Translations under genes and position numbers: made by a program | The notes under the pieces: generated by a model | Seen by the model: only the letters and a program-made list of their open reading frames with translations | What the model was told of the DNA's origin: nothing | The model's database searches: none | Shown: piece after piece, positions 10,191 through 61,808 of the stretch | Numbering within the stretch: the first letter of the stretch is position 1 | Layout of the letters: each line of letters opens with the position of its first letter | From: Agelas oroides | Taxonomy: Eukaryota > Porifera > Demospongiae > Agelasida > Agelasidae | Assembly (NCBI GenBank): GCA_949130485.1 | Contig: OX422184.1 | Location: 9,154,996-9,218,995, forward strand | Direction: 5' to 3' | DNA: 64,000 nt

Positions 10191-12660
10191 ATGGAGAGAG
10201 TTGATGCAGCTAAGATTTGCTGTGGTAATCCTGACGACAAGTATGCAGTTTTGCATAACATACGCAAAGGTCATTTCATGGATTCTTCAGGTTCGCTCAT
10301 GTTTGATACACATGGGCAATAACATTGAATGTAATTTAGTTTATTTTGCTTATATACAGGAACCCAGGTTGTGGCATCAGTGGAGTCTGACACTCTTGGG
10401 TTCAGTACTATTCGACATGGTGATGCGTGCTCATTCTAGATGAAAATGCAAGCATTCGCTGTGAGAAATGTAAAACACACCAAAAGTTGCTGAATAGCAT
10501 GCTAAACCGGTACCAGAGAGGATCCCCAAGTGACAGGGTGAAACCAAGCAGCCACACCAACTTCCGTCAGCTGTCAACCCCTGAAAAGATTGACCGTCTC
10601 CACAATTTGCACCGAGCAAATCGTCAGCTAAAGCAGCGACTTGAGCGAGTTAATCAGCGTATCAAACAGGTCATTGAACGAGATGGGATTGAACTTGATG
10701 AGGTGACTGGAAGAAAGTCGCGAGAAAGCCACAAACACGTTCACTGATGGTTCATTCCAGAAGCTGTTTTGGGAACAACAGCAACTAGCCTCCTCTGTCA
10801 AGGATTCTCGATCAATGAGATGGCATCCACTTATCATCAAGTGGTGCATCTATTTGCGGCACCTCTCCAGTGGAGCATATGAAGCACTGCGTTCATCAGG
10901 CTGTGTCAAGCTTCCATCACAGCGTACTCTCCGTGATTATACGCACTACGTTCGTGCGCTTCCTGGATTCTCCGATGATGTCGACAAACAGTTGATCGAA
11001 GCCGCAAAACTTCAAATATGTGAAGAATTTCAGAAGTATGCGGTCTTAGTGATGGATGAGATGCACATTAAAGAAGACCTAGTCTACGATAAACACAGTG
11101 GGGAGCTTGTTGGCTTTGTCAATCTTGGTGAAACGAACAATCACCTCATTCAGTTTGAACACCAGGTCGAGGGCAACACAGGCGAGTACGAACCCTTAGC
11201 CAATTCCATGGTTGTCATCATGGTTAGGGGACTGTTCACGCACCTTCAGTTTCCCTACGCACAGTTTCCCTGTGCTTCCATTACAGGGGACCTTCTATTC
11301 GATCCCCTTTGGGAGGCTGTCTCGAGGCTTGAGATCTGCGGGTTGAAAGTGATGGCCCTGACCTGTGATGGGGCTTCAATGAACCGTCGCCTCTTCAAGT
11401 TGCACCAAACAGGAACACAGCTGGTGTACAAGGTTGTCAACCCAGTTGCCACTGAGCGATACGTATACTTCTTCTCCGACACACCACACCTGCTTAAAAC
11501 GGTGCGAAATGCCTGGCAGAGTAGGAAGCGGCACTTGTGGGTAAGTACTTAGCATACGTATACATACACACACATTCATACATATATACATACAGTGTCA
11601 TACGCACAAATTGATTTTAAACCTGTGCCTTTTACAGTGCAATGGTAAGGAGATAAAATGGGAGCATTTGGCAGCGCTGTATGAGCGTGATAGTGGTGCA
11701 GTGAGGGAGGCCCCTGGACTTTCACTGGTCCCCAAACTCAAGTGGGAGCACATTCATCTCACGTCCTTCTCGAAAATGAGAGTCGACCTTGCTGCACAGG
11801 TGAGTGAGTAAAATTCCTGTAAATGAGGATTGCAAGTGACTTCACAACCTGAATATCTGTAGGTCCTCAGTGAGTCAGTGGCAACAGCAATGAAGTTGAC
11901 AGGAGGATCTGAGGTTACTGAGACGGTGAGGTTTGTCACGATGTTTGACAGGTTCTTCGACTGCCTCAATGTGAACACACTTGTTAGCTTCAAAAGAGGT
12001 TGGTATTATTAGATGTATTAGTGTCAACACACCTGTTATCTGCAACCCCAAGTATGTTTCTGGACTCAGAAACATCATCTTCTTCTCCAATTTTGAAAAT
12101 CCTGGTCGTTCCTTGACGCTCTGCTCCCACTCATTCAGATAGCCAAGAAAGGTCTCCTTCAACCACTGAAATCATTATAATGAGCAAAGATTAGTGATTT
12201 TAATTCAAGTGGTAGAGCCTTAGAATTAGATACCTTCAACCGGAAGTCATTTGCAGACTTGTAGGGCTGCTTAAACACCTTTCTTTTGTGATAGCCCGTC
12301 ATGAAGTTGTAGGGGTGTGTTTACATTAATATAACCGCCACCTTCGTTGTCTACCATTCTACAGTGAACTCATTTGTGGAACTTGTGAAGTTTCTCTTCA
12401 CTATACCTGGCATGAAGGCATTCCTCAGTGAGAAGCTGTCCCAAGACCCTCTGGAGAAGTTTTTTGGTTGCCAGAGACAGAGGGGGAGGGTTAATGAAAA
12501 CCCTACTGCCACACAGTTTTATAAGAACACACAGGCTTTGAGGGTTGTAAATTCTTTTTGTATGCCGTCTGTGAGAGGAAATTGCCGAGGCAACAGAACA
12601 CATATAGATTTTGAGGCTGAGAACCAGCCTTTACCGAAGCGACACCGTGCCAAGAAGTAG
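10191..12660 (+). pseudogene. P-element-type (THAP9-like) transposase
   Basis: The family is recognised from several landmarks: CCGNPDDKYAVLHNIRKG (about 10210-10290), VMDEMHIKEDLVYDKHSGEL with the first catalytic acid (about 11050), LTCDGASMNRRLF (about 11365), the GTP-binding-type insertion region, and DPLEKFFGCQRQRGRVNENP near the C-terminus (about 12450). Introns at 11541-11637 and 11800-11862 have good GT/AG ends. The frame shifts near 10430 and again near 10715. The segment 12034-12313, which holds YKSANDFRLK, WLKETFLGYLNEW and ETYLGLQIT, is on the opposite strand; turning it back restores a 50-54 bp intron before VNSFVELVKF. A THAP zinc finger should lie at the N-terminus, but I could not see one in 9200-10190. 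It would act in the nucleus on the element's own ends. Confidence 0.8.
12034..12313 (-). other. Inverted internal block of the P-type transposase gene (280 bp)
   Basis: Read on the minus strand this block encodes PYNFMTGYHKRKVFKQPYKS, an intron, then WLKETFLGYLNEW...ETYLGLQIT, which belongs between the plus-strand exons ending at 11998 and starting at 12364. It is bounded by AACACACC (12026-12033) and GGTGTGTT (12314-12321), an inverted pair that extends to 11 of 12 bases. Re-inverting rebuilds the donor CAG/GTGTGT opposite the existing acceptor. Confidence 0.85.
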
Positions 12661-12739
12661 TAATTATAATATAGTTTTTTGTTTTGCATTTCCTTGATAA
12701 ATCTTATTCACAAGTTATATCATACATTTAAGTTGAAGA

Positions 12740-13738
12740 ATCTGCAGTGTTACTACTACTACTGAACAAACCACTGCGTAAAGCCTTAGACTTTTGCAGG
12801 GTTTTCTTGTTCGCCTGCTTGTACTGTTCTATCCAGCCACTTACAAAGGAGAAACCACGTATTGTCACCCATAGTTCAAAGAGGTGGTAAGAGAACATTT
12901 GAGGAAGAGCAACATGCAGAGTCTTTCGCTTTCAGGTGGCAAGCATCTTCTAATCAGTAAGATCACATCAGATGAAGATGTCCGCTTCAACTGGTGCATA
13001 GCAGCTGCAGACTTTGGAGAAGCAGAGGAAAAGATCCTACTAGAAAAGATCATCCATGGACTGAAAGACCATAAATGTCGTGTCGCTAACATGCCACAAT
13101 CCTCCCCTATCAATGGAGTTTAACCAGGTCTCTGAACTTCCTTCTTCATCATCATTATCATCCAGAAGGTCCATGATGCTTAAAATCAGCTCCTCTTTTA
13201 ATGGATGAGATGATCTTTCTAACTTCTTCCGCAGGTTCCGGCAGACATACCCAGCGGCATAGCGAAGAGCGTTTTCCTCTTCACCCAAGAGAGGAGGAAG
13301 GTCTTCATTGGAACTAATTCCCTTTTCAAGAGGGAATCGCTGACGAATCATTTCTCTGAACATCAACATTGTCAGATGCTGGGTGAGGATCAGGGTTGCT
13401 GGCTCACCCACTGCTGATGTGGTGAAGGATGACCACCGAGATAGAAAACTAGATGAAGTGCGAATTTTGTGGTAGTTAGCCCACATTTTCTCTCTCTGTC
13501 GGTGTGGTCGCTTCATTCTGGAATCAAATGCTGTGTCCAGATGGGCAATAGTTTCCACTGCAAAGGGCTCCAGCATTGCCTTGTTTTCATCTTTAGAGGC
13601 CCACTCCAGTAGCTTTACTGCTGAGATTCTGGCAGTGGAAGCGTTAGCAGAAGGCAGTTTAAACCTCCCATCCTCCAGCACATCGTTCAATGCCTTCATT
13701 AGACTGTCAGCTGCACCTTCAGGCAAAAAGTTTGACAT
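12740..13738 (-). pseudogene. P-element-associated ORF2, copy 1 (unrecognised family)
   Basis: The minus-strand frame contains MWANYHKIRTSSSFLSRW, MFREMIRQRFPL, ALRYAAGYVCRNLRKKLE and WLNSIDRGGLWHVSDTTFMV. The same landmarks occur in order in the plus-strand copy at 14.4-15.3 kb, so this is a real, conserved protein of roughly 330-350 residues. The LRYaaGYVC motif recalls a motif near the C-terminus of several transposases (P, KDZ), but I do not see catalytic acids I could defend. The block 12873-13053 is reversed. With it turned back the frame runs through to FSFVSGWIEQYKQANKKTLQ and ends near 12740. It lies tail to tail with the transposase. The function is unknown; a DNA-binding or regulatory helper is only a guess. 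Confidence 0.65.
12873..13053 (+). other. Inverted internal block of ORF2 copy 1 (181 bp)
   Basis: On the plus strand this reads FKEVVREHLRKSNMQSLSLS...DVRFNWCIAAADFGEAEEK, homologous to ELEVRKHLKSS...DDVLFYWC in copy 2, while the rest of ORF2 is on the minus strand. Reversing it gives the junctions FQSM-EFKEV and KII-WVTIRGFSF, both in frame. The edges carry CCAT on the left and CCATGG on the right. Confidence 0.85.
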
Positions 13739-14426
13739 CTGTCAACATATATAAAGCATATAATGCACACATATAGTCACTTATCAGTTGACTGTAGAGG
13801 CCGAAAACGTGACATGTCAATTCGAAGCGAACGCCTGCCTCTCACCAATAGACCAGTAGACTTGCTCAACACGTGCTAGCGACAGCGGGCAACAATTGGA
13901 ATACAGAAGTAGGTGTGGCTACACGAGGAACTTCCGGTATAACGCGGAGTGTAGGTGCAAATCGGTGAGAAAACACGCCGTTTCCAATCCTGGTCCGAAG
14001 GTTATATATTATCTATGTTTTGGCCACCTGCCTTTTGCATTGATCAAAGCATAGATAAAAGAGCGGGAAACGGGATTGGCAACGAGCAGTAATTCACACT
14101 ACCTTACACCTCCATCATCGTTTCGGCGGATGTACTTTCAAAGATAACCAGATGTGTTGTTAATTTACAATTATTGACTTCTTGTTTTGGGGCAATTAAA
14201 TGCCCGTTGCGATTCTCCCAACAGCGCCGCGTATTCCGAGTTGTAAGTGCATGGGAGCGATATTCGAGTTGGTGTGACAGCAAGCTAGTAAGCAATAGGA
14301 AATGCACAAGATGTCAAGTGCCTGCAGTCCACAGAGTCCACTTTGTAAGTTCAAAGTCACAGCAGTTACTGTAGAACACATATGTTGACATACATTGATG
14401 TCATTGTGCTTCCTTGTCCTTGTAGA

Positions 14427-15328
14427 AATCCTGCAAAAGGCAGTGGAATCGGTTCTTGCAGATGAAAGCTTCAAGCTCCCTTCACCAACGCCCTCTTGGC
14501 TGCTCAGAAAATAGCAGCATTATTTGGCACAAACCAACAGCTAATCTCAGAGTTCACTGAAAGGCTGGTCAGTACCCTGATGCCTACCTTTGAAAGCAAA
14601 GCATCGTCCTGTAAGGTGAGAAGGGAGAACATGTGGAGAAAATACCACAGCATTAGAACAACACCCGAGTACAAGGCTCTGTGGGAGCAGTTCTTACTAA
14701 AATCTATCAACTCAGTTGCATCACCCACATTCTACCAGTACGCCACAGATGTGGTCTTTCGGCAGTTGATTCAGGAACAATTCCCTCTCCCAAGAAGTGC
14801 AGAGCAAGGTGATCCCTCAGCTGTCATTAGCTACCAAGAGTCAAATGTGCTACGATATGTCTCAGGGTATGTGTGTCATGCTTTAACGGCAACAGTGAAG
14901 TCATCCAATCATCCTCAAAAAAAGGAGTTACTCCTTTGTCTGGGTGATTTAACCACAGATGAACAGGATGAGCAATTGTCCAATACAGAGGACTGGACAA
15001 AACTTATTGATCGTGGAGGACTAACGCATGTGAATGACAGCACATACATGCTGTTCCATTCAATGGAACTGGAAGTCCGCAAGCACCTGAAGTCCAGCGT
15101 AACAAGCACACAAAAGAAACAATTTGTGGATTCAGTGTGCCAAAACGATGATGTATTGTTTTATTGGTGTATGTTAGTAGTAGAGTCAGAATGCTTGTAG
15201 AGCTTTTTGTAAATTTAAGAGGCTTTGCTTTTACTTCAACATGGATGGAACAGTACAAGCAGACCATGAAGAAAGGATTACAACGTTCCAAAGCCTTGCG
15301 ACGAGAAGTCTGTGAAAAAAATGAGTAA
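14427..15328 (+). pseudogene. P-element-associated ORF2, copy 2
   Basis: This is homologous along its length to the minus-strand ORF2 of copy 1. The start of the recognisable frame is EILQKAVESVLADESFKLP after an acceptor at about 14426. A one-base shift near 14485 leads into AAQKIAALFGTN, then MWRKYHSIRTTPEYKALW, FRQLIQEQFPLP, VLRYVSGYVCHAL and IDRGGLTHVNDSTYMLFHSM. A 53-bp intron (15169-15221) separates FYWC from FAFTSTWMEQYKQTMKKGLQ, ending at a TAA at 15328. Unlike copy 1 it has no inverted block, so it serves as the reference for what copy 1 looked like. A possible first exon starts at about 14302. The function is unknown. Confidence 0.65.
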
Positions 15329-15599
15329 CTTTGTGTATACCTGTTTAATATTAGATATAGAAGACAGTACAAATTTCCTTATACACTTTATCTATTTATC
15401 AACAATGTTTATCAATGTTGTAACAATGATAAATAATACGAAATTAGAAGGTCTAAACTTTTCTCGAATATCTTCGTTTTGGAAGTTGTGTGTTGAGTGG
15501 GGGAGCACTGCAGTCCCGGAGTGGGTTTTCTAAGACTTAATGTGATTGGTCAGAAGGGATGATGTCATTATGATGTCATTAATAATCTAGATACAAGCA

Positions 15600-15850
15600 A
15601 CAAAAGTCACAGAAACACAAGAAACCATGAGAAACGCGAGAAACACAAGAAACACAAGAAACGCGAGAAACACGAGAAACGCGAGAAACACGAGAAACCC
15701 CAGAAACACGGTCACAGTAACTGGAGAGTGTTGCTGAGAAACACGAGAAACCCCAGAAAAACAGTCACAGTAACTGGAGAGTGTTGCTGAGAAACACGAG
15801 AAACCCCAGAAACATGGTAACAGGAGTGTTGCTGAGAAACACCGTCACAG
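15600..15850. repeat. GAAAC-type minisatellite, left subterminal array
   Basis: Irregular tandem units of 9-12 bases such as GAAACACGA and GAAACCCCA, plus a longer repeat with CAGTCACAGTAACTGGAGAG that occurs three times. It is the inverse counterpart of the larger array at 24.58-25.33 kb, supporting the terminal symmetry of the KDZ element. Confidence 0.7.
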
Positions 15851-16072
15851 CAACTGCCGAGTGGTGTTCAGAAATGCAAGAAGCATGAGAAGCCGCACAT
15901 AGTAACTGAGTAAGGCTAAGAACACATTTCTCAGCCTTACCCTGAGTGTGTATGGTCTTGCATTATGCAAGAACCACACATAGTGACTGGTGGGTAAGAA
16001 TCATCCAACAGGGTTAGTTAGGGAGGAGGGTGGGGCTGATGGAGGTTTTAGATTTAGGGTTTCAGAATAGGA

Positions 16073-16120
16073 CTAAGGTTAGGGTTAGGGTTATGGAATG
16101 GGGTTAGGGTTAGGGCTAGA
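16073..16120 (+). repeat. Short interstitial TTAGGG-like array
   Basis: Several near-perfect TTAGGG units in two clusters, GGTTAGGGTTAGGGTTA and GGGGTTAGGGTTAGGG, embedded in degenerate TTAGG-rich sequence to about 16170. This matches the metazoan telomere unit but is far too short and too internal to be a chromosome end here. Confidence 0.7.
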
Positions 16121-16579
16121 TTTAGTTATGGTTATGACTTATGACAATTTAGGTCTGAGGGTTATGGCTATGGTGGGATTTAGGACTCATGCAAGTTTAT
16201 GATTATAATGGCGTAAAGATGCTGTTGAGGCATTTGTGGTGCTCGAAATACCAAGTTTGAAAAATACAATGCTACAATCACGATGCATACTGATACATAA
16301 TTTTAACATTGTTACACTGCTCGTTTCTGACATCCTTTTGGCTGTCTATCAATATCATAATTATGCTATTGTGGTGACATGTAGTCTGGTAGTTGTTGAC
16401 ATGTAGTCTGGTAGTTGTTGACATGTATGCCGAGTATGACCAGGAGTTTTGCATAGTGAACATGCATACACAAAGCGGTGTAGACGGTCACGAACAACAG
16501 TCTCGCCTTGTTGGAGTTTAGCTTTCATCTGCTGTAGCTTTTTTGTTATGATGCTTTTGTTGTGCCAGTAGTCCATTAA

Positions 16580-17161
16580 CCGTTTAACAGCGATTGACGC
16601 CTATACGCGTCATCGAAATTCGGCCGCATGTTATCAGTTGGCGCAATCCGTTTTGAAGATAGGTTCTGCGCTAGCAGAAAGGGTGGGACAGGGGGAGGTG
16701 GGTGGGTGCACCGCTCTGGCTGACAGTGCATTGTGCAGACTAGTCCAACCTTCTTTCACCTGTATTTCCACTCCTGCCAGGAGTTAGCTCAAGAAACTTG
16801 ATCCACAGCTTCTTTCAGAAGTTCTTTGCAGGTTCATGACCCTGACCACACCCACTCATTACCGAGCGCTCAACAGTCAGGGCCCTCCGACTAGACAGCG
16901 CTCCTCCAGACTGAAAGCTGCCTAAAAAGCCAGAAATGGAGTCCATACAAGGTGAAAGCACCGTTTTCTACACTCGTTTGTACAAGAAAGCAGAAGAATG
17001 GGCCATCCAGTGCTGACCAGGCCCTTTCTATAGCCAGCTGCAACAGCCGCCATGCACCGTCAGCCAGAGCGGTGCACCCACCCAGTGCTGACCAGGCCCT
17101 TTCTATAGCCAGCTGCAACAGCCGCCAGACTATTAGGGAAATTAATTTAGTAGTTAAAGGG
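16580..17161. mobile_element. piggyBac-type MITE in the last KDZ exon (TTAA target)
   Basis: The 582-bp insert begins CCGTTTAAC and ends in the inverse GTTAAAGGG. It is flanked by TTAA (16576-16579) and CTAA (17162-17165), a TTAA duplication with one change. Removing it rejoins the minus-strand exon as FYNRL-MDYWHN in frame. Inside, a ~45-bp segment beginning CAGTGCTGACCAGGCCC is repeated at about 17009 and 17091, and GTGGGTGCACCGCTCTGGCT (about 16700) recurs in inverse near 17070-17093. It carries no transposase and must have been mobilised by a partner. Confidence 0.8.
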
Positions 17162-18807
17162 CTAACCGGTTATAAAAGAAGTAATGTTGCATGTTTTGCT
17201 GAGAACTGGACTGCAGTTGTACTGTCTTTATTTTAGAGTTTATCACCTCTGACAGCACTGATTGATACTGTGTCACTTCCGGGCAAAGTCGCATGTTATG
17301 GAACTTGCATGTGGGCTTCTTGTGTCCTGATGTTCGTGGGCCATCATGGAAGCGATCTCCAACAATGTATCTATCTGTTGTTTGGGTGAGAGGGTGCAAA
17401 ACCTGCCTACAGTAACTGTGATCTCGCAATGCAACATCAGATGGAGTTGGTAAGGAGTGGGGGCTTTTCAACTGTTGTACATGTATGATCTGTAAATGCA
17501 AACATATTTTATGCGTGAATAAGATTAGACCACTTATACTTTTGTACATGTAGCTCACCTTTGGTGGAGTACTTGCTGATGGTACCTCAAAACATCCTCG
17601 TCTGTCTCCCCACAGGGCACTTGCTAGTTGCGGCTCACGGACTTCCATGTGTGCAACCACATCACACGCCATGTCTACAGCATACACTGTAGGCCAGCAT
17701 CGTGAAGAAAGGAGGAGGTCAACATGATCTCTGGTGCTTTCCTTCCGCACAGTGTACTTTGTGGCAGATATAACCTGCATGTACAGCATGGTGGTGTAAA
17801 CTACTATAAATGTATGCTACATCTGAAGTAATGCAAATTACCTGGTGGTTACAGTTTTTGAAGACTTTCCCACCAGTGCAGGATGGAGCCGCTTCAAATA
17901 CGTGGCATTCACTCTTGCCCTGAAGCACGAATGAATGCAACTTCTCCAAAACAAGAAGCATCTGTGGCTGCAAAATTTAAAACATGTAGCATGGATTAAA
18001 ATTGAAAAGGGTTGATATTACATCGAGATAAAAATATTCAAGCACCTTTGTTGGATGTAATCCAACAGGGATGTCAACTGCTTCACATACTGCTCTCAGT
18101 TCAGGTGCGCTGGTACTGCCAACCTTGGCAGGGTTGTATCATCCTGTTCTTATAACTTCAGCAAGTTTTTTGGGACAACCAGTGGGAGTATCTTCTGAGT
18201 GGTGGTGGTGTTGGTTTCCTCCTACACAGAATTCAAGAAACGTTTAACTGTCTCAGCTACAAGTATCTTTTCTCACTCATTTTTCCCTTTTCCCTGGCTT
18301 CCCCTCAAAAGTTTTATTGTATACTGTACTGAGAAACATATTTTGCACTTTCAAACTAACCTATAATGTGTTTTGTAAGCCTTTTTAGGCTGCTTGATAA
18401 GTATTCCACATGGGGATGCATACCTTTCAAATGCTCCGTGTTTAACACCACTCTTCCTCTGCATGCAGGGGGGATCCATGGAGCAATTTTGTCGGCTTTA
18501 AGGTGGATGGGTGTAGCAGTATAGTACACTGCAGCCTCAATCATTTTGTCCTCAATTGCTTTCCACCACCCGTCCATATCAACTGCTCCAGTGCCATCAG
18601 CAGGCAAGGTTTCAGACCACACACACTGGAAATAACAGAACAGTACAGTACAAATCTATTATAAGTTAATTAGCCTATTTATAGTACCTGTCCTTTCCGT
18701 AGTGGTGTGCACTTTTTACAGTTACCATCTCCACTCTCAAAAACAGGGGCAACACCACAAATCCCACAGATGCTTTCGTTCCAGTCACGCTCTGTCATGG
18801 CCTTGAT

Positions 18808-18925
18808 GCAACTGTGTAATAATTGCATTCAACTGTGTAATATTGCATTCAACTGTGTAATAGCTGCATGTAACTGTCTAATAATTGCATGCAACTGTGT
18901 AATGATTGCATGCAACTGTATTACA
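18808..18925. repeat. 22-bp tandem repeat in a KDZ intron
   Basis: Five copies of a 22-base unit with core CAACTGTGTAATAATTGCAT fill most of the intron between the third and fourth exons (18802-18965). The first copy abuts the acceptor of the downstream exon. Confidence 0.8.
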
Positions 18926-20331: not shown

Positions 20332-20521
20332 ACTGTATACTTACTCTTGCCCACCTATAAAATAAACTTTACTGCTATTCGTAATGTCATGGCTACGCCG
20401 TAGTACGCAAAATATTAGCCAATAGTATTTCATTCTAACATCAGAGGCTCTGATTGGCTATGAGCAACATCTTCACAACCGTGGTTTCTTAGCTACAATT
20501 TGTGACAGTTGTTGCAAAGGT
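20332..20521. promoter_or_regulatory. Divergent promoter between KDZ transposase and ATPase genes
   Basis: Only 190 bases separate the two start codons, which point away from each other. The interval holds CCAAT-type boxes in both directions (TAGCCAATAG at about 20418 and GATTGGCT at about 20451) and an AT-rich CTATAAAATAAAC at about 20356. A shared bidirectional promoter is the natural reading. No binding factor can be named. Confidence 0.5.
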
Positions 20522-22866
20522 ATGAAAATGCCGGTCACTTCTCTCTGCGTAAAAGAGGACGGAATACATCGAAGCAATGAGCGCAATAACACCAGCGAGC
20601 CTGTTTCCAACTTCACCCTGAAGCTAACAGCTTCAGTTGAGAATGCAGATTCCGGTTTTCTGGTGCTAATAAAGCGCATTCCTGACGGCGTTGAGAGGTG
20701 AGTGTATATATGCTGGAATTGCTTAAGGCCATCTTAACGCAGAGTACTATATAGTGCATGCATGCATGCCCGCTTGGTAATACCTGGTAACACGCGCTGC
20801 ACCAACATGCATACTCATTGAATATACCGAGCATCATGTAGCATAACTATTGTATGGCATGCATCCATGGATGTCGTATCTGCAAAAAGACTAGCAAGCG
20901 CGAGAATGTTACTAATTTGCAGGATAATTATTTCCACAGAGAGTGCTTTCTACCTATGTCTGAGCTGTCCAACCTAAAACAGTTCAGTGCTCACATCAAC
21001 CTTGTGTTTCCTGGTGGGGCACTATTCCTGGTGTGCAATGATGTTGAGTCAAGAGACTGTTCATGGAACTGACGTGTGCATTTCTGCAAGGAAACCATCG
21101 CATTGTCAATGGAGTAAGTGTCATTGGTCGAAACACAACCGATGAAGTGTGGATGTTTTCTCCAAGCACACAGCTTGATCGAGATGGTAATTGGGTAGAA
21201 TGCAACAACTCACGGTTTGTCTGGTTACCAAGTGCAAATGGTCTTGAGGGTGAAAAACGACTACATTGCACTATCTGCATGCCACTTGATGATGGTGAAG
21301 CATTGAAAGACCTCTATGCTGCTGTTGAGGCTTTTATGCCTGATAATGCCATAGCCGTCTGTAGTCTGGCTGTTCAAAAGGTGTGTATCGTGTGCACCAA
21401 ACAACGCAAGACCACACAGGATAGCTTCTGTCTTACAGGATCCAGGCTCTCCAAACAGGAATGGTACACCAACGTGACCACATCTAGTGATGATCTGCTC
21501 ATAAGCTGCTCTCATTATGCATGAAGCCATGGTAGCACAGCATCCTACCTCTTTGGTGCCTTGAAGCGTACCACCATTCCCATAGCAGTGGATGACATCA
21601 ATGAGAAAACCCAAGATATTTGGGAAGAGCTGATCATTGATGCTTACAATAACACTGCTCGAGGAACAAGATCCTACATTGTTGAGAGTTTTTCCACAAT
21701 TCCCATCCTGTCAGCAAATTGGCGGTTTCCCAGTGGAAAGGGAAGGGCATTCACTCGCTGCATCTCAATCCCATTTATTGAGCATAAAGATGAGCCAAAT
21801 GCACCACAGCTCTACAGCAACTTAAAGGAATGTCGCATAAAAGCATCAGCATCAGCAGGAGTGTTCATTCGATTGAGTACTGGGTTCACTACCAATGATG
21901 CACAGATGTTGTTGCGTGGTGACCTGTTCACAAACACGGCTGCACTCTATCAGAATGCCCACGTATGATTCAAAACGATGATGACAATCTTCATGTACTT
22001 TTTCCTCAAGGTATATATAGACTGCCAGTAGTTGTTTTATCCATGCATATACTGCACATCGTTTTTTTACAGCTTGCAGACCTCTGTGAAGTTGCTGAGG
22101 ATACATGTTGGGATTTTGTATCCAGTCAGATGGTGCCACTGGCCATGGAAGGCTCCCCCAACTCCAATAGCCAGCTTTCAAATCCTGGAGAAGTGGTGGA
22201 TAGCTTCATTTCTGTGCTGGCCCAAAATGTTGCTGATATTCCCAGAAATGAGGTTTGTATGTAGTTGACTGCAATTGTTTCAATAAGGTGCGTAGTAATC
22301 ACCTGGATGCAAATATACATCTTTTCCTATTTTAGCTGCTCAAGGTTGTTAGTGTAGACGTTTCAACAAAGTGCTACCTACAATTGTGTCTGGCTGTCCG
22401 AGTGACAAAGGTGATGGCTTTGCTGCCAAGGATGGAAATCAGCGCTGCACAAGTGGAAACAGCACTGAATGCTAGTCCACAGTGCCGAAAATCCCAGCAG
22501 AAGTTTCTTCACCCTGGGAGTGCTGACACCAAGATCTACAAGGCGAGAAAGGACAAGGTGGTAATACAGCTGGACAACACTGCCACATCATTGCTCAGTC
22601 AATCATCGCTGATGAGCAACTAACAAGCATTCGTCAAGGTATGTAACAAATTTATATCTTACTCAGTCAGCAAAGTTTGTTTTAGCATTGCATATCCGTT
22701 TCGATTTTCAATAGCAATGGCAGACAGTGAGGATCGAGAAGAGTCTGAAGATGACATTCAGACATACACAACTCCACAGACTGAAGTTGATCCTTCTGGC
22801 ATGGGTGAAACCACAGGTAGGGCTACCAGTGCCCAGGAGCCCCTGTCTAAACGACAGCGGATATAG
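20522..22866 (+). pseudogene. P-loop ATPase (DUF927-like) carried by the KDZ element
   Basis: The first exon, 20522-20697, encodes MKMPVTSLCVKEDGIHRSNE...FLVLIKRIPDGVER before a GTGAGT donor. Further segments encode FHRECFLPMSELSNLKQF (about 20930), DEVWMFSPSTQLDRDGNW (about 21140), a Walker A motif GEPGSCKTEA found on the opposite strand (inverted block 21353-21528), then a Walker B-like IPIAVDDINEKTQDIWEELI (about 21585) and SFSTIPILSANW (about 21690). Later exons (about 22075-22255, 22337-22640, 22716-22866) end in an acidic tail with SEDREESEDD and SKRQRI. The frame shifts near 22580. The domain order matches DUF927-type helicase/ATPase proteins seen with cnidarian and sponge transposons. 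A role in ATP-driven remodelling during transposition is an inference from its position. Confidence 0.6.
21353..21528 (-). other. Inverted internal block of the ATPase gene (176 bp), contains Walker A
   Basis: Read on the minus strand the block encodes SCIMRAAYEQIITRCGHVGV, PFLFGEPGSCKTEAILCGLA and LFGAHDTHLLNSQTTDG, while everything on either side is plus-strand. It is bounded by CCAT (21349-21352) and ATGG (21529-21532). Re-inverting gives two in-frame joins, PDNAM-ASCIM and TTDGYG-STASYLFGALK, so the ATP-binding loop is put back in front of its Walker B strand. Confidence 0.9.
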
Positions 22867-39770: not shown

Positions 39771-39771
39771 A

Positions 39772-51039: not shown

Positions 51040-52934
51040 TCAGCTTCTGCCATCATAGGATATCTGCATGTCATGCTGCATGTGTTTTGTCTTGCAGCAG
51101 CAGATTCAATTAGCTGGTGGAAGGCTGTTAATAGATTTCTAGAACAGGCTAGGGAAGTAGGCTAGGTTTCCCTTGATTAAAGAGTTTACTTGTTTGCATT
51201 CATCTTGGTTATGTTTGCGAATGGCAAATAGCAACTCATTTGGCTATCGCCCGTGGGGATCAAGGTCTACAGTGGAACTTCACTTTAGAAGCTCATATCT
51301 ATAAAACTATAGGTGATAGGTGAACTTTCCAGCTGCGGTGGCGAGAATAGCGGATTTAGGCCAATTCTGGGGAAATGGGCCTCAGGACCTGGAGCACGAC
51401 TTCTTGACGGCCATCTTGCTGTTCTGTGACGTTTATGGCCACGTGAGCAATACCAGATACATTTACATCAGTGCACGTGCGATGCCGTGGAATTAAGTTC
51501 TACGACCTATCGGACTAGGTGCTAGACAGGGTGATGGTGTTATTTTAGTCAGGGAGCCCCATAATCCTCGGGATTCCAACTGTGTTGCCATGTTTTTGTG
51601 TGGGGGTGCAATGCTGGTCCACGTGGCTAAGGAGGCGGCAGAGTGGCTCTCTCCAATGCTTTTGGGACCCTTCCGCATCACTGGGTGAGTAAATGACTTA
51701 ATAATTTGTACATTATAATAGTGTTTGTATGCATTTGCAGGTATATTATGTCCTCTCCATATTCTATGGACCCTGGTGGGAATCGCTGTTGGAGATATCG
51801 GGTATTGGACATCCACATCTTCATCAAGGGTTCGTGGAAGTACCAGGATGCAGTGGCTGAAGCATTGGAGGGGGGCAGCAGCCTTAGTAATGTTGTGTCC
51901 CCATACCAGCATTGCTGTGCCAATCAGTGTAATGGCGATTCCTTTCTGAATTTCCATTGAAGAATTTCTCCGCATGTACGAAGTGATGCAGCCCAGCCCT
52001 GCGCTGAGAAGGTGGCCCTGTCATAATGGAACATTCTGTACAGGGTGGTTGGTGGAACGTCGGGTTCCATGGTGAACCTAGCCGCTACAGCAGCTGTAGG
52101 ATTTCCCCTAGGAGAGCATTTTGCCTGTTGTACATGTATTTTCTGCTCTGCCCTGACCTTGCATGCTCTCTTGCAGCTGTCAGCAGTGGAAGTGTTGGTT
52201 GAGTCAGCCAATACTGCAGCTATCACACACTTCCTGGTTGCTTTCACTCCGGAAGCGATCGCGGAAGGGAGTGGGTTCTGAAAAGAACCGGTTGTGGGTA
52301 CAGAATCAATATTCATAGCTCACTGACAGCAGACGGCTTCTCACTCAAACTCGAGGTTGTGATATTGCGTAATATCGATGTGACGTCACAACTGTGATAA
52401 TCTTAAGAACAGTAATATGGACAAACCGGAAAAGTGGCCGTCAAGAAGTCGCACTCTGGCTCCTGAGGCACTTTCAGAGATGTCTCCTTAACTCTCAGCC
52501 CATTTCCCCAGAATTGGCCTAGATCCGCGTTTCTTGCCACCGCAGCTGGAAAGTTCACCTACTTGTATTTTATTCCTGGAAGTTCAGACCTTAACTCGCA
52601 TGTTTGCGCGCATACCATGCTAAAGGCGTGGAGGACTCAGAAATGGCTAGTTTGGCCCCCTCTCTGCAGTTCAAAGGAAGTTACCTTGGTGAGAATCAAT
52701 TGGCAGTGGTTTGGGACGTTAAACTATAATGCTTGTGGCAATGGCATGCTAAAAGTCCCTTTCTGACCCAGGGTTGTTTACCCCCACCTCTGGTCACATG
52801 ACTGTCACCTGATGTTGTTTGTACCTATCGGTCTTATGCAGAATTAGCTGGAGATCATGAAAATGTATTTATATTTCTTGTATCACGTATAGTTTTATAG
52901 ATATGAGCTTGTAAAGTGAAAAAAAAAGTTTTTG

Positions 52935-53390
52935 CTCTCTTACCCACCACCACTTCTTGCCGTATGCTCCTCCAACCAGACCTCTTTTACTGCTTCTTGA
53001 TGGGCACTCAAGCCACTACCATGTTGTGAAGAAGGCTGCAGAGGAACAGGTAATTCTGTTCTGCTTGCCTCCTCATACCACCCACCTGACCCAGCCTTTA
53101 GAAATTCGCTTTGAAGAAGGGTATGACTTAGATATTGATCCAAGGTATACACTTTGGAAGAGAATGTATCACCCGGATTATTCTTTTGCTGCTTCGCCTG
53201 TGATTTCACTCTCGACTCCATCTCTCACCTGACAGCTGTCTTTGTCATCGCCATCATCATCATGTCCATTACCTGGTGAGCTGGATCTTTCCGACGACCT
53301 ACGAGAGAAGATAGAAAAACAAGAATTGAAGGAGAAGCGAAAGAGGGAGAGAAAAGAGAAGAAGTTAGTGAAAAGTATTCTGTAGTTGGC
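52935..53390 (+). pseudogene. pogo/Tigger-type DDE transposase, C-terminal part
   Basis: The plus-strand frame encodes LTHHHFLPYAPPTRPLLLLL, DGHSSHYHVVKKAAEEQVIL, FCLPPHTTHLTQPLE. This is the second catalytic D (LLLDGHSSH) and the C-terminal DDE_1 block. The third acid of the family is normally in PLD; here PLE is followed by unrelated-looking sequence. A lysine-rich tail, DDLREKIEKQELKEKRKRER, lies at about 53285-53370. It is the 3' part of the minus-strand gene at 54.2-54.8 kb, reversed by the inversion. Confidence 0.75.
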
Positions 53391-53434
53391 TTTGTAGTCT
53401 AGGTAGGATACAAAAGATGGGGGGGGCAAGAAAT

Positions 53435-53945
53435 TTACATTTTATTGTCAAACTGCAGCATTGCAAGGAGCCAAATGTGGAAGGTCTTGTGGTGATGCCA
53501 CAGAAAATGCCAGGGGCAGTGGTGAGTTAAAATTTTGTGGAGAGGATGGGAAGGAAAGTGACATTTTTGATGTCTAATTATAGGAGCCAAACGAACATTT
53601 TTAATGTCTAATTATAGGAGCCAAATGAGTGACTCGTGCTGCCAGCACCACAGAGAAGACCAGTGGCAGTGGCTCATCTGGTGAATGAAAATTTTGTGGA
53701 GTAGATGGGTGACAAGAAAATAAATGCATATTTTATTGTCAAACTGCAGGATTGCAAGGAGCCAAAATGGTGTGGTGGGTCTTGTGCTGATGCCACAGAA
53801 AAGGCCAGGGGCAGAGGTGAGTTAACATTTTGTGGAGAGGATGGGAAGGAAAGTGACATTTTTGATGTCTAATTATAGGAGCCAATCGAGCGACTTGTGC
53901 TGCCAGCACCACAGAGAAGACCAGTGGCAGTGGCTCATCTGGTGC
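53435..53945. repeat. Tandem duplication of a ~290-bp unit
   Basis: The unit beginning ATTTTATTGTCAAACTGCAG at about 53437 recurs at about 53726 with more than 90% identity over about 220 bases (GATGCCACAGAAAA.GCCAGG, GAGCCAA..GAGTGACT). The same ATTTTATTGTCAAA motif occurs in the arms of the 54.9-55.9 kb element. Confidence 0.75.
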
Positions 53946-54167
53946 TGCCATCATAGGATATCTGCATGTCATGCTGCATGTGTTTTGTCTTGCAGCAGCA
54001 GATTCAATTAGCTGGTAGAAGGCTGTTAATAGATTTTTAGAACAGTCTAGGGAAGTACTTCATTAAAGAGTTTACTTGTTTGCATTCATTTTGGTAATGT
54101 TTGTGAATGGCATGGGTAATAGCAACTCATTTGGCTATCGCTCCGTTGGGATGGTCTACAGTGGAAC

Positions 54168-54824
54168 TCAAAACCACAATTCGAATAAGTCACCATCCAT
54201 CCACCCACTGTAGACAATCCATACATTGTCCCAGGTACTTCCCCTGCTGCCATCTCTGGCTTTAGGGTCTTCCTATCAAATATTACCATCGGAGGCATTG
54301 TATACCCGGCTGCATTGCAGCATGCTACAACCGTTACCTGTGCCTTGTTCCCTGTGGATACCACTTGTGAATGCCGAAAGCCACATGGAGCCACTACCTT
54401 CAAAGCAGCAGGGTCAAGTGGCATCCCACTTTCATCAACAATCAGACAAGGTTTGTCTGTCAGATCGTTTTCTTCAAGGGTGCTCCAAAGAAGGTCATAA
54501 TAACGATCAAGAATTGCAGAACTGGACACTAACCTTACATAGGCCACACGTTCAGCAGTTCGAAGCTTCACTTCTGGGTGGCGACGTTTAAAAGAATCCC
54601 ACCACCCACCGTCACCTTTACATCCAATCCCTTGTCCTTGATCACCTGCTGGACAAGCACAAGCAACTGCAACCGTGTTCTCGCATAGCCAATCTCTGTA
54701 CAACAACAAAGTTCACAAGCTCACTTTCCTCCTGGTCATTAAGGTACCTTGCAGGACCACTCGTGTGCAATGATGACACTGAGGATGAGCGGAGGATTCT
54801 TTCTTTTAGTGGAGGGTGCAACAT
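54168..54824 (-). pseudogene. pogo/Tigger-type DDE transposase, N-terminal and first catalytic part
   Basis: The minus strand encodes HTSGPARYLNDQEESELVNF (the CENP-B/Psq-type HTH region), then GGWWDSFKRRHPEVKLRTAE, the first catalytic block CLIVDESGMPLDP (about 54440), STGNKAQVTVVACCNAAGYT and PPMVIFDRK. A one-base change near 54215 shifts the frame. The original frame then runs GWMDGDLFELWF up to the inversion breakpoint at about 54168. It would bind and cut the ends of its own element. The copy is broken by the frame change and by the inversion. Confidence 0.75.
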
Positions 54825-54946
54825 TACTCTGTATTAGAAAATATTCACAAACAAATGGTCAAGTTCGCATATTTTATTAGCGCATGTGCTTAACGCATGA
54901 TGGGTAGGACCCTCATGTGCTTAGTAAAAATTAATGTCGGCTTACC

Positions 54947-55861
54947 ATGTCCATCACCTCATGAGAGGAATCTGATCTTAGAGTAGAAAGTTGTATTTTA
55001 TTGTCAAAGTGCAGAGTTGCAAAGGGAAACATGGGTCTGTAGGCAACAACTCTTGTGGAATTAGTCTTTTGTTGGCTGGATAGTCTTTCTGTAATGTCCT
55101 TCATCATGCACCTGGAAAATCACAATACCTCACTGGTAGCTGCTGTGCATTAAGTTACATGGCAGTGTAGCTGGTAGGTATTCAATGTTTCCTGTACAGA
55201 CTATTGTGCTATTTTTCTTGAGAGCACAGACTATTTTTCTTGTGCTATTTTTCTTGTGCTATTTTTCTTGCACAGACATTGGGCTCTTGAGTTTATGTGT
55301 ACCTTGATTAGTCATCACCAATGACACCTTGATGACTTTTTGTGTATGCAAGATATTGGACTACCAATGGTAAAGTTGACAAATTTTATTGCAAGGTTTT
55401 GAATAGTAATATCCTTCCTGAAGATTAGCAGTCTATTTACTGTGGGTAGTCCAATATTTTGTGAATGAAATTACATATAGCATGTGTTTGATAGAATGTA
55501 TTAAGCATTACATGTACACCTGTACCAGAATGGCAACTAGCACCGAGATGCCTGACTTTGGTACTTGGTTGGTGCAGGGCAGAATGGTGGGACATAGTTC
55601 AACCCAGTCCGTTCAACAAGTGATTTTGGCGTGGGTATAACATTGCTCATAGACATGCCCCTTAGAATCTAGTGTAAGCACTGAGAAGCAGCTTCATCGG
55701 AAAGTGAAACCAGGGAAGAGAAACTCAATGAAGGAGCGGCTCCATGGCAACTTCCCGTGGTACGAGACCTACATTTCGCTCTTTGCAACTCTGCAGTTTG
55801 ACAATAAAATACCACCTTCTTCTCTATGATCAGATTCCTCTAACGAGGTGATGAGAAATGA
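54947..55861. mobile_element. Element with ~75-bp inverted arms (non-autonomous)
   Basis: The left arm at about 54947-55022 (CATCACCTCATGAGAGGAAT, CTGATC, then TTTATTGTCAAA.TGCAGAG) and the right arm at about 55786-55861 are inverse copies with about 85-90% identity. The interior has no gene. It includes a threefold TATTTTTCTTGTGC repeat at 55205-55270 and ATATTGGACTACC/GGTAGTCCAATAT as an inner inverse pair (about 55352 and 55441). The target duplication is not resolved. Confidence 0.6.
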
Positions 55862-57382
55862 AGAGGTTGAGACTTAAACCACAGGTGAGGAAGCAAAGCA
55901 ATTGGAGATTAGTCTTGTCCCCAAACCATATTCTTGCGAGTAGCCCTGCCCAACAAGGGTGGGTTCTACACTGTCAGTAATTGTAGGTGTTAATCATAAA
56001 AATATCACACTAATAGTGTAAGCCATATACCCACAAAGTTGTAAGCTGGTGGTCAGCAGGTAAAGATTATACGTGATAGATGCCAATTGGCGTCATATGC
56101 ATGCATGTCACAAAACACGATAGACACCAGAGTGAATAGCTATAAGCTTTGTATCCTGTCTGTGATAAGCTTGGGGCTTCCCCTACTACTAAGTAAGATG
56201 ATTCATGCATCATCGTGGGGCGAGCGAGCAATGCACAATATGCTGATTTAATGGTTTGTCATGGCACACAAACCATGCACTGTTAGTAACAGCAGGATTT
56301 GTCACTGTCTGCTGTTCCACGAGCGTGGTAAGCAAAACTTCATGTAGTCAAGCAGTATAGCCAGTTATCACCAGATATAGACGGTGATCATACATGCTGA
56401 CAAATTCCAGCCATTTCTCCGGTCAAGGAAGCTACTAAGGCTATACACATGCTTGGACTAAGCTTCAAACTAAAGTTATAAGCTGAATCTCTGGCACTTA
56501 TGAGTGTCGATTATGCATGGCCCTTCAGACCTGAAGCGAACTCAACTACTGTGCGTAATTTGTACCATCTGTGTGCAGCCTTCTGTCATGGTCCGCAGTT
56601 GCCATGCGTGCGTTAACTTGAGCCGTCTCGCTCCGAGTTTCTTTCACGCTGATGCTGCACTCTGGCAGTAGACCTTCACCGACAGCAGGCTGGCACGCGC
56701 ACGAGACTATCCTCGTGAAATATTTAAATGTGCTCATTTAAAATTTACAGTATATGGCCGCAAGCAAACAAGCAAACAAGCATACACACGTACTTCCGGA
56801 ATGCAGTCCCGCTAGTGTGGGGCTGCTCAGACTTACCGCAATTACAAGTGGGTTGGTCCAGAAGCCCTCAAGAGGTGGAGTATAGTGAGCGATAACAGCC
56901 CAGGTGGTTGTCGATCTCCTGATCGAGTAAACGACTTATTAGTACACGTCAGAGCTGCACAAGAGCTTTACCCCAGCCATAGGCTATTAGCAACAAGTGT
57001 GATATCCGGTTGGTGGTTAGATAGGGGCCTCCCATAGTAATTTGTGGGGTTGGGTCTAGAAGCCGTCAAGGGGTGGAGTGTAGTGAATGCCAGAAGCCAT
57101 GATGGTTGCCGATCGGCTCAATCGTGAAAGTGACTTATTCGCCATGTTTTCTTCTCAATGCCTATAAGCTGAGACAAAACGCTACCTACGAAGGTGCAGC
57201 GGACCTTAGGCTTCATACGTAACGAAGCAGTTCTGGGATTCTTCTGGCTGTCAACGAGAAAAGCCAAAGATGCTACACACAACTAACAACAAGTAAGCAT
57301 CCTCAGCAAAGCAGTACTGTATGCTTTAGAACCACTTACCTAGATGTACATGTATGTATAAATTATTATACTTGATGAACAC
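55862..57382. other. No gene seen; contains the second copy of the 23.9-kb repeat
   Basis: Two related segments, TTGGTCCAGAAGCC..CAAGAGGTGGAGTATAGTGA at 56852-56890 and a similar stretch at 57050-57085, show a ~200-bp tandem duplication. The dispersed repeat at 56740-56840 matches 23.86-23.96 kb. Confidence 0.4.
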
Positions 57383-58244
57383 GTGTCAGCGGTCATTGTA
57401 TGGCACATACTCTGTGGTCAACAGGAAATTGCCTTAAGAGGGCATGATGAGTCTGCCAAATCTATGAATAGGGGAAATTTCCGTGAGATTTTGAACTTGG
57501 TATCCAATCATGATGACATTGTCAGAGAGAGACTGTGCAGTGGTCCGAGAAATGCTACCTACACATCTCCTGAAATCCAGAACATGTTGCTACATAATAT
57601 GGGTGGCATGGTTCAAAGCATCATCTGCAGCAAAATCCAAGAAGCTGGCATATTTTCACTATTGGTAGATGAAAGCAAGGACCATGCGAAGAAAGAGCAA
57701 CTAACCATTGTTCTGAGATGTGTTGATCCGAAAGAATTCGCTATTCAGTGGTCGGACTACCATAGCGGAAGTGCCTTATATGGAAGGTTCTATTTGCAAG
57801 CGGAAGTCGTACGTTGACGCTGGGTCTGAGATAAAATTTGCCGATTTTTTGCGTGAAATTCTTCTCACCGTAACTCTTGAACCATTTACTCAAACTGAAT
57901 GCAGTTTTCACCAAACGAAGCACACATCTTTTCTCAAACAGAAAAAGTATTTAGTGTAGACAGCAGGCACACGAATCCAATGCTATTCAGCAGTATCTAC
58001 ACTTGGTACAAAATGTCCGCGTGCGCAGAGGATGTCAAACTTAGTTGCACAAACTTTGGTCGTCACTCCTTTCGAAGCATATTTGGTACCATTTTGTAGC
58101 TAATAGGCCAAACAACAGCAAGGGTAACTTTAGATTTGTGTCGTGGGCCTATGGTGAGCAGCACAGGATATTTAAAGTTGATAAAATTGCACGCGCGAAA
58201 TCGCTAGTAAACAATATATAGGAATACGAACAAGAAGCTGGGAT

Positions 58245-60613
58245 TTGCGCATGGCAGGAATTAAAGACATGTCTCCATTGTTTTTGGTTTTTGACAGACC
58301 TACATACAGAAAACTAATTCCTAATCATCTCACTGAAGTGTTAACAATGCCTCCAGGTGTCCTCAAGCACCTTCAGGATGGGGCTTTTGCTTCATCCATA
58401 ACAGACAGGGCCCTTCACTGTGAAGCCATAGATGAGGCACATGAGATGAAAATCAATAGGGAAGCAAAAAGCTTGGTTGTGAGACCAACAGAACACAACA
58501 TGCACACAATTTCTAACTCCCTACCATTTCGAGCAAAAATGATGGCAGCATTTGACCTCGAACTCTTTCCCAAGAAGCGTCATGCTACCTCACTTGACAT
58601 CATTTCAGGACAACCTTCAACTACACTGAAAAGAGTAGGTGAAAATATCGCAGCCATGGTTGGAGCGATAGCTGACAGTCAAATGATAGCCTTTACCACT
58701 GTGAACCGAGGTCTCATGAATTTCTTCCCAAAAGAGAAGGCCACACCAGAACAATCCCATGACCTTTCTTTTAGAAAGACTGGTGCGCAGCATTTAGAGT
58801 CATACATAAATACTAACATCCTGCACAATTCGAGTGCAAATGCTGATCAACGCTTACACCGGTTAAGCACTTTTTCAACATCAGTGAAAGAGAAGCAGAG
58901 AGTAAAGCAGGTACAGAGAGAGGAAATGCTAATTTAGTTGTGCATGAGAAAGCAAATAGCTATGGCCAGTGAGAATCCAAACATAAAGGGCAAAGTACAC
59001 ACTTTTAGCAAAATGCCACTTGCTCTGGTTGACAAAGAGGGAATGCCCGGGAATGCCCAGTAAAGGCAAGAAGAGCAGTACAACATCTGCACTCTCCAAA
59101 CGGTATAGCCATGTACCTCCGGTTACTGATCACCTACCATGTGGGTGGCAACCTCATGCAGTTGTAATTGAGGGAATGTTCATTATATATACTGTCCTAC
59201 CCTTACACCACAAAACAATGAAAGAGTACACTATGTTTGTGTTGAAGCGGTTTGTCATGAAACATTTCCTCCGTGGTTGCATTGAAGTACATGTCATCTT
59301 TGACGACCCTAACAGGTACGACCGGTCTCCAAAGACAGTAGAAAGAGAACGGAAGGATAAACAAACTACATCTGACCTAAACCACATTCATTCTAAATTT
59401 GAGGATTCCCTACCACCTAGTAGCAAATGGACAAGTGTATTAAAATGCAGAGAATGCAAGCACAATCTAACTACACAGCTAGCTGTTCACGTGGTTCAAT
59501 TAGTGCAACCCATGTTGTTACCTGGCAAAAGGTTTGTTACGGCTGGTTCGTTCAGAGACTGCTTGAGAGACCATGCTATGTGTGTCGAGCATGGAAATCC
59601 CAGCACTTTCACTGATGAAAGGTTAACCTGTAATATTGAAGAAGGTGGTATGAGAGTGTGGATGCACTGTAAGTATTCAGTGGGAACTCACAAATTGCTT
59701 TTCTCCCCTGACACTGATACTTATCATGTAGGAATGGGACTACTGGAGGATATCTGACTATGTGAATGTGATGTGTATGTGCAGATCAACAGGGTTTGTG
59801 ACCCTGACAAGTACATTTCAACATGCAAGCTTCATTAGCAATGGCCAAGAGCAACCTGGTACACTGGCTGACATAACACCTGAACGAGAGTCACTTGGAT
59901 TTCTTTCATTTGTTAGGCTTGTAGGGACAGTATACTTTAAACTTCACCTGCAAGCATTTGTACATCGCACACCTGAAAGTCACCTCCAAAGTTTCTGCAT
60001 GTTCGACGAAATATCAAACTCAACTGAGCAGCACCTTCTTTGGCTTGATGATATTTGTAAAAAGACATGGGCAAGAGCAAAATCACCTGCAGACAAAGTG
60101 CCGTCCTTTGATGCATTGTTGTATCATTGGAAGCGATGTGTATGGGTACTGCATATGTGGAAACAGTCTTTGAACAACACAGTTAACCTTTTACCCATGA
60201 CAAGCTATGGCTGGGAAATGAAAGATGGCCACCTTGCAGTCAAATGGGAATCACCAGAGAATATAGAGAATGTTGAAAGTCACGTCAAGTACTACCTCAA
60301 AGGTTGTGGGTGCAAAAAATCACAGTGTGGCACCAAGCAGTGTGGGTGTAAAAACCAGGACCCACCTCGCACATGTGGTCCAGGATGCACATGCTCACCT
60401 GAGTTTTGCAGAAATCAGGAAACGTCACAGGAGGAGGGTCAATCATCAACAATTCCAAATGTTGTAAGTCTTGATCAGGAGTTCCTGGATGCATCAGATG
60501 ACAGTGATGACAATGGTGAAAATGATATGCATACACAACAGTTATTAGAAGAAGTTGATCAAATTATGAAAGATGTATTTGGAGAACTTAGCGATTCAGA
60601 AATTTTACTATAA
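58245..60613 (+). pseudogene. Transposon protein with PIN/XPG-like motifs and TSO1-type CXC domain
   Basis: The first part, 58245-58937, contains HLQDGAFASSITDRALHCEA and RGLMNFFPKEKATPEQSHDL. The second, 59020-59757, contains WQPHAVVIEGMFIIYTVLPL, RGCIEVHVIFDDPNRYDRSP, KCRECKHNLTTQL, KRFVTAGSF and KLLFSPDTDTYHVGMG. The third, 59762-60613, has HLQAFVHRTPESHLQSF, YHWKRCVWVLHMW and the cysteine-rich CGCKKSQCGTKQCGCKNQDP followed by CGPGCTC (about 60305-60400), then an acidic tail. Spaced acids including SPDTD suggest a PIN/FEN-like fold. The CXC part resembles tesmin/TSO1 DNA-binding repeats. One stop near 58935, a 10-bp duplication (GGAATGCCCG) near 59045 and frame changes near 59757-59830 break it. 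Confidence 0.65.
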
Positions 60614-61245
60614 ATGAGTAAAATATATGTAACTTCTTCCTTGACACTCTGAAGATTTTAGTTATTGTATCGTAAAATATATGTAACTTCTTGCTGCATG
60701 GATATTCTGAAGATATAACATGGGTAACATAATCTGTTTGTGTGTATGTGCGCTTTTATTAGATCTAGCTAGAAACCTTTTATGAACTACATTCCACCGT
60801 CAACTTTGACCTCCCCAAAGTGCCTACTTAATTAAGACTTTATTCACCTCGTGTAGTTGGATGCACGGTCAGGACACAAAATCTATGGTTATAAACGTGA
60901 TGCCCAGCCCATTAGCTATATTTTGATACCTATTTCGTCACAATAGCTGTGACGACCTGGATTTGTGCAACTATTTGCCTTACCTCCTTCACCGTGACTG
61001 TCCACGAGCAGTCTCTGCTCTCTCCCTCCTGTAGCCGAAGTACCTAACGAAGGGCTTTCATTTAAAGCATACCGAATAGCAGCGCTTCCTTGGCCGTAGG
61101 ACAACGCAAGTCCAGTCAAAATCCGTCCAGCGAGTGAGCTGTTAGAATGTGCTAAACATGGGCCACAAAAAAAACGCTAAATTCTGCACTTCGCTGTTGA
61201 CTCACGTTGCCACTTCCGCGTTGCAAATAAAATACCGGAAGTTTC
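60614..61245. other. 3' non-coding part of the 3.5-kb element
   Basis: After the stop, AAATATATGTAACTTCTT is repeated twice (60625 and 60675), then no gene is seen up to the right terminus. A short minus frame at 60916-61119 has no domain. Confidence 0.4.
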
Positions 61246-61632
61246 TACGGTAGTCCGACCACTGCATTCATGAGTACTTTTTGGCTTTTGTAGAAGCTGC
61301 CAGCCTCAACGCTGAAGGCCTCACTAACTACATTGTGGATACACTAAAAAAGCACCAATTAGATCTGGCATGCATAACTTCTCAAGGTTATGATGGCGCT
61401 TCAGTCATGAGTGGCCATTGTTCAGGTGTTCAGGAAGGCTTAGGTCAATTGCACCACACGCTGTCTATATTCATTGTTATGCACATGTTTGCGACTATCT
61501 GACACTCACTGGAGCTGTCGATATAGTTCAGTAGATGCTGTCTGCTGTACTTTTGACAGAAATAGCAGAAAGCAGTGCTGGACCAAAATCTACGGAAGCT
61601 ACAGGTCTACTGCTTCCGGTGAAGAGTTTCAA

Positions 61633-61808
61633 CATAATCAAAGAGATGATCCCAGGAACAATCACTCCTAAACTCTTCCAGTGTTTCAACAGTAGCCAAA
61701 ACCAAGTCAGTTGCTTTAGCTAGATCCATCTTTGTACTTTGCAATGCATCTGACAAGCGTTTGGTGATTGACAGTAACCTGTCAAAAATAGCAAGTGCAA
61801 GAAGAAAT
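61633..61808 (-). other. Inverted internal block of the hAT-like gene (176 bp)
   Basis: On the minus strand it encodes FLLALAIFDRLLSITKRLSD, ALQSTKMDLAKATDLVLATV, ETLEEFRSDCSWDHLFDY, the segment that belongs between the plus-strand parts ending VKSF and starting VETVANVHC. The edges are the inverse pair GTTTCAA (61626-61632) and TTGAAAC (61809-61815). Reversal restores VKSF-KFLLALA and FDYV-ETVANVH in frame. Confidence 0.9.

Follow-up and report, generated by a model that had tools for sequence, protein, structure and literature searches.

Small in-place inversions in transposons and other repeated sequence within a 64-kb window of the Agelas oroides genome

The microinversions reported in birds are segments reversed in place, 5-38 bp long with a median of 22 (Braun et al. 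2011, PMC3123225); according to the available part of that survey, inversions overlap at hotspots, and the hotspots carry no stem-loops or motifs. The definite human-chimpanzee microinversions, as given in the available part of the second survey, measure 17-33 nt, and 59 of 59 have flanking inverted repeats (Potapova et al. 2022, PMC8755829). As far as the excerpted study goes, template switching in great apes yields reverse-complement fragments taken from nearby (PMC7954356). In the scrambled genes of ciliates, copies share the same scrambled order and carry pointer repeats. We have analysed a 64-kb window of the genome of the sponge Agelas oroides (the whole stretch under study, positions 9154996-9218995 of contig C2, GenBank OX422184.1, in an assembly of 259.3 Mb and 141 contigs), in which six blocks lie on the reversed strand, all of them in transposons or other repeated sequence. 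Like the bird inversions, they are reversed in place, and two of the flips described below overlap; like the human-chimpanzee ones, they are clean. They are, however, larger than the 5-38 bp that the available parts of the two surveys span: about 165-1,229 bp, the shortest being about 157-169 bp (in a copy on contig C23) and, in the window, 173 bp. They also mostly lack the flanking inverted repeats of the human-chimpanzee set. No report of such flips was found in the literature searched, the coverage of which was partial. Gene models are disrupted by flips of ~150-1,300 bp, which look like exons on the wrong strand.

A block was counted as a small inversion when a segment had been replaced in place by its reverse complement, with flanks collinear with a homologue. 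The preliminary description of the window had listed five such blocks, and all five are indeed reversed relative to homologous sequence; the sixth, in a non-coding repeat, had escaped it. Some of its coordinates had to be redrawn, such as those of the P-type block, given as 280 bp at 12034-12313. Unflipped homologous sequence exists in the same genome for the P-type, repeat, ATPase and hAT-like blocks. For the companion gene of the P-type element, open reading frame 2 (ORF2), and for the pogo gene, the unflipped order was read from the order of the protein, together with the C23 copy (ORF2) and a restored element terminus (pogo). The divergence of the blocks agrees with that of their flanks in the P-type and ATPase alignments. 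That the window holds the derived state is seen from collinear ORFs for the P-type, ORF2 and hAT-like genes, from 39 of 40 long matches of the repeat and from 28 of 68 ATPase homologues. Pfam matches in the window or its copies fall in P-type, pogo, hAT-related and DDE_Tnp_4/YqaJ genes. The coordinates are collected in Table 1.

Table 1. Inverted blocks and the genes or repeats that carry them (window positions, cited in the text with the prefix w; L numbers are loci, C numbers contigs)
Feature	Position	Strand	Basis
P-type transposase gene remnant, several exons/pieces, TNP-like RNase H domain	10424..12657	+	PF21787 at 10707-11549; copies L010/L065, L018, L020
Inverted block 1, P-type gene, 330-336 bp, ACA/TGT joints	11975..12310	-	Breakpoint scan on the alignment to L065
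ORF2, companion gene of the P-type element	12764..13717	-	tblastn with L016, L019, L022 ORFs
Inverted block 2, ORF2, 173-175 bp	12880..13052 (about)	+	Alignment to C23 copy L012
Multi-copy non-coding repeat carrying block 3	16576..17166	.	Nucleotide-search matches; copies L088, L089
Inverted block 3, repeat, 395-397 bp (not in the preliminary description)	16732..17126 (about)	-	Long matches in the other order; clean flip against L088
ATPase gene, 382 codons in copy L066	20883..22028	+	L066 ORF transferred by alignment; 68 homologues
Inverted block 4, ATPase, 174-184 bp	21358..21541	-	L066 alignment and scan
Element with ends TACAGTGGAACTC.., beside block 5, right terminus cut by the inversion	51268..52941	.	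Family copies L069, L070, L071
Inverted block 5, 1,229 bp, holds the following part of the pogo DDE domain and 14 bp from the terminus of the neighbouring element	52942..54170	+	DDE_1 profile 73-119 on plus; turned frame; restored terminus
Pogo-type transposase, N-terminal part	54089..54712	-	DDE_1 profile positions 1-34, E=0.0084 (weak, below Pfam cut-off)
hAT-like transposase remnant	61254..61921	+	tblastn to L059, L062, L063, L064; PF14291 and PF05699 in L064 and L063
Inverted block 6, hAT-like, 176-190 bp, GTTTCAA/TTGAAAC at joints	61626..61815 (about 61632-61813)	-	Collinear copies

A paralogue of the P-type gene on contig C1 (C1:11806500-11813500, L065) is 94-97% identical to the window gene, with one block on the other strand; identity is 97.3% within the block and 94.2-96.7% in the flanks. 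A two-breakpoint scan gave equally good best solutions from w11978-12307 to w11975-12310, which share the ACA/TGT of the joints; the edges proposed earlier, AACACACC/GGTGTGTT, are therefore not those of the block. A collinear ORF from another copy (L018) finds its C1 counterpart on a single strand and is split between the two strands of the window, so it is the window that holds the flipped form.

ORF2 is, in other copies, the gene that adjoins the P-type genes on the opposite strand. The C23 copy to which it was aligned (L012) has been flipped as well, over 157-169 bp in its present form; its block overlaps that of the window without coinciding with it, and about 23-32 bp are missing near one of its edges. 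Turning both blocks raised the alignment score from 547 to 1032. Thus, one gene is seen in two copies with two different flips. The P-type gene of the window has two ORF2-like neighbours, one on the minus strand (12764-13717) and one on the plus strand (14529-15310). At another locus (L079, C23:3344500-3348500) ORF2 lies on the strand of the P-type gene, the two being on opposite strands in the other fetched copies that show both; this is perhaps a flip of the whole ORF2, ~1 kb long, and it was not counted.

In the non-coding repeat, block 3 lies the other way round in 39 of 40 long matches and as in the window in none; the remaining match has no partner. These results come from a search in which 39 of 2,144 first-look candidates were scored. 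The bias of this scoring runs against the result, because a copy with the order of the window would have scored higher. Both copies that were fetched match the window in two long pieces that are 98.6-100% identical, so the flip looks recent; the short end pieces are 94.9-98% identical. A variant of the repeat with an internal tandem duplication of ~75 bp is represented by matches on C11, C15 and C16, and in the window copy the duplication lies inside the flipped block. We considered the extra 75 bp as a trace of template switching at block 3 and dropped this idea: the matches on these three contigs also reach into that piece, which suggests a tandem duplication of earlier date.

For the ATPase block, equally good solutions range from w21363-21536 (174 bp) to w21358-21541 (184 bp), and the left joint differs in a few bases. 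Relative to the copy elsewhere on C2 (C2:14434600-14441700, L066) the block is 99.4% identical and reversed, and the flanks are 95.9-99.3% identical. A protein search with the unflipped translation retrieved the 68 homologues, and the 28 mentioned above align over 93-97% of its length, spanning the block. Pfam gave no match for the ATPase or for three minus-strand ORFs of the stretch labelled KDZ, a label taken from the preliminary description only.

Turning w52942-54170 joins in frame the parts of the pogo gene that match DDE_1 positions 1-34 and 73-119; stops persist elsewhere in the turned frame. It also gives the neighbouring element back its terminus in the form seen in L069 and L070, except for 2 bp. 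Two ~240 bp repeats (w51039-51279 and w53937-54168) are direct at present; with the block turned, they would flank the element as inverted arms, whose palindromic centre GGTCTAGACC encloses the TA where an element sits. The hAT-like copies on C4, C11, C14 and C21 encode the corresponding region on one strand. The block is defined against the collinear copies L059 and L063, and less sharply against L062 and L064.

The edges were analysed by taking the longest exact inverse match within 6 bp of both edges and comparing it with random position pairs, for seven short blocks (those of the window without pogo, and two from elsewhere, the C23 copy and a C5 copy described below). The P-type (4 bp, p=0.46), ORF2 (3 bp, p=0.90), ATPase (4 bp, p=0.45), repeat (3 bp, p=0.87) and C5 (3 bp, p=0.86) blocks are at chance level, the C23 block is marginal (6 bp, p=0.05) and only the hAT-like block stands out (7 bp, p=0.006). 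Inverse repeats at the edges are thus mostly what chance would give, in five of the seven blocks, and the GTTTCAA/TTGAAAC pair of the hAT-like block exceeds it. Altered joints were seen at the pogo block (minus 2 bp), the ATPase block (the few bases mentioned) and the C23 copy (its missing bases). No common sequence was seen by eye in the printed edges; no motif search was run.

The flips are conservative, with little or no homology and small losses at the joints, as end joining at two breaks would give, the hAT-like block being the exception. We consider it probable, at about 0.6, that the blocks arose independently of one another as small, mostly conservative inversions in copies of repeats free of constraint, made in the germline by paired breaks and reversed end joining. 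Two double-strand breaks, from less than 200 to ~1,200 bp apart, would have freed a piece, which end joining would have put back in reverse with 0-3 bp shared or with small changes at the joints; the hAT-like block may instead have used its own 7-bp inverse match. The C23 and C5 flips, found in copies that were not picked for strand, support this reading. Several observations weigh on the other side. All the evidence is drawn from one assembly, template switching can likewise give clean flips, and the hAT-like and C23 joints have the inverse matches described above. In addition, no flip was found in eight decayed hAT copies or in ten close locus pairs (24.9 kb; pairs sharing loci or overlapping were left out), which gives no ground for calling the process frequent in general.

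Template switching, in which a polymerase jumps during replication to the nearby opposite strand and back and so copies a segment reversed, would account for flips in place and for the 7-bp and 6-bp inverse matches at the hAT-like and C23 joints, and it has the great ape precedent. In the available part of that study, however, the reversed fragments have a median of 12 and a maximum of 128 nt and mostly change the length of the sequence, 5.5% having kept it, compared with ~165-1,229 bp here, and the P-type, repeat and C5 flips are conservative with joints at chance level. We regard it as an unlikely source of these blocks, though one with a real chance. A link to transposases, by which the element's own enzyme cuts, or faulty gap repair after excision flips a piece, is rather improbable. 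The P-type, pogo and hAT-like genes do encode transposase domains, the other blocks lie in repeated sequence, and one edge of the pogo flip lies inside the terminus of the neighbouring element. On the other hand, the element types are unrelated, the edges have no motif in common as far as inspection by eye goes, no terminus was noticed at the other edges (termini were not mapped), and repeats are also where a flip can be detected. The 5' inversion that twin priming produces in long interspersed nuclear elements (LINEs) was rejected, since the P-type, pogo and hAT-like genes have DNA-transposase domains and the ORF2 here adjoins P-type genes and is not the ORF2 of a LINE; in this comparison the ATPase gene and the non-coding repeat were not classified as to element type.

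Outside the window, eight P-like places were fetched regardless of strand from a search in which 48 candidates were scored. The C5 copy (L076) proved to carry a clean flip of 363-365 bp relative to a C6 copy (L019), the score rising from 903 to 1548 when it was turned. Altogether, 20 P-like or ORF2 loci besides the window and the C1 paralogue, in which 38.0 kb of coding sequence were covered, show two clear flips (L012 and L076) and one doubtful one (L079); five of the 20 also supplied reference ORFs. Lists of protein matches are insensitive to flips, as the P-like search did not list the window's own reversed piece. The rest of the window is broadly collinear with its listed copies, which are the best-scoring ones and hence disfavour flipped ones, except for opposite-strand matches that are due to end pieces, to adjacent copies or to inverted ends (for example C22:5505973-5509857, C2:24715187-24716452, C2:25079325-25080813 and C2:10057757-10060480). 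Opposite-strand neighbours in the inverted-repeat-rich w26.8-27.3k, 38-39.8k and 42.0-44.8k were not counted as flips, nor were an in-place flip of ~110 bp between L044 and L056, which is a weak candidate at 67-73% identity, and the mixed strands of L068, where a second piece is displaced by ~0.8 kb.

With six flips in 64 kb the window is dense, and the sampled density outside is much lower. Because the window was singled out on account of its flips, its density is inflated; the sixth came to light later. The difference may reflect a local hotspot or selection by chance. Of the suggestion that the host often makes local inversions through microhomology, the local inversions stand, the microhomology mostly falls away, and "often" is unproven, far fewer being present in the sampled sequence outside; a genome-wide excess is not borne out by the sample.

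A systematic assembly or library artefact, also proposed at the outset, is unlikely. Flips do occur in several copies, which speaks for it. However, the myosin-head matches listed, 97 in number and covering 18.8 kb in 20 places (65 of 183 candidates were scored, and the listing of the family search omits some exons), all keep to a single strand within each place, 39 of 40 repeat matches are unflipped, the ten close pairs show no flip, joints are altered, and two ORF2 copies have different, overlapping flips. At the rough window rate of 4 per 16 kb, 4.7 flips would be expected in the myosin control (P of none 0.009); at the sampled P-family rate, 1.0 would be expected there (P=0.37) and 2.6 in the ten pairs with both members counted (P of none 0.07). 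Since the expectations at the latter rate are so low, each control alone is weak.

Programmed rearrangement between germline and soma, as in ciliates, ranks last and is very improbable. Reversed segments, and short shared sequence at the hAT-like and perhaps the C23 joints, would fit it. Against it, different copies have different flips, as the overlapping pair in ORF2 illustrates, the joints are mostly at chance level, no common edge sequence was seen by eye, and neither the 39 repeat matches nor the listed myosin matches show a flip.

The short blocks are 174, 179, 183, about 181 (C23), 333, about 375 (C5) and 396 bp long, where 181 is the midpoint between 157-169 bp as the copy stands and up to ~197 bp with the missing bases, and 375 that between 363 bp as it stands and ~388 bp in the unflipped copy. 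Compared with log-uniform lengths, they fit multiples of a period of 150-210 bp with P=0.004-0.014, depending on the null range (0.015-0.021 with free phase), in a post hoc test on seven events that leaves out the 1,229-bp block. The clustering of lengths (four of six within 13%) has P=0.002 for a range of 30-1,300 bp, 0.006 for 100-1,300, 0.03 for 120-500 and 0.08 for 150-400. One can speculate, with considerable doubt, that one or two nucleosome repeats (~180 and 330-396 bp) were cut at neighbouring linkers and rejoined in reverse, so that the inversions would carry a nucleosome ladder, in the genome at large or in certain chromatin. Clustered linker breaks are similar in that two breaks surround one or a few nucleosomes, and differ in that the piece, by the available account, is restored or lost (PMC3763544); its reversal here would be a further step. 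Where the multi-copy repeats of a chromosome-scale genome contain flips, the rate, size spectrum and joint structure of these could be measured, end joining could be told from template switching, and one could ask whether the breaks follow nucleosomes.

Two further features of the window lie apart from the blocks. A long low-complexity stretch at w24529-25442 is open in several frames, with repeat translations rich in Phe/Leu/Ser/Cys/Val or in Glu/Lys/His/Arg. A YqaJ-type nuclease gene on the minus strand stands beside a DDE_Tnp_4 transposase gene on the plus strand twice, at w45288-46486 and w62341-64000.

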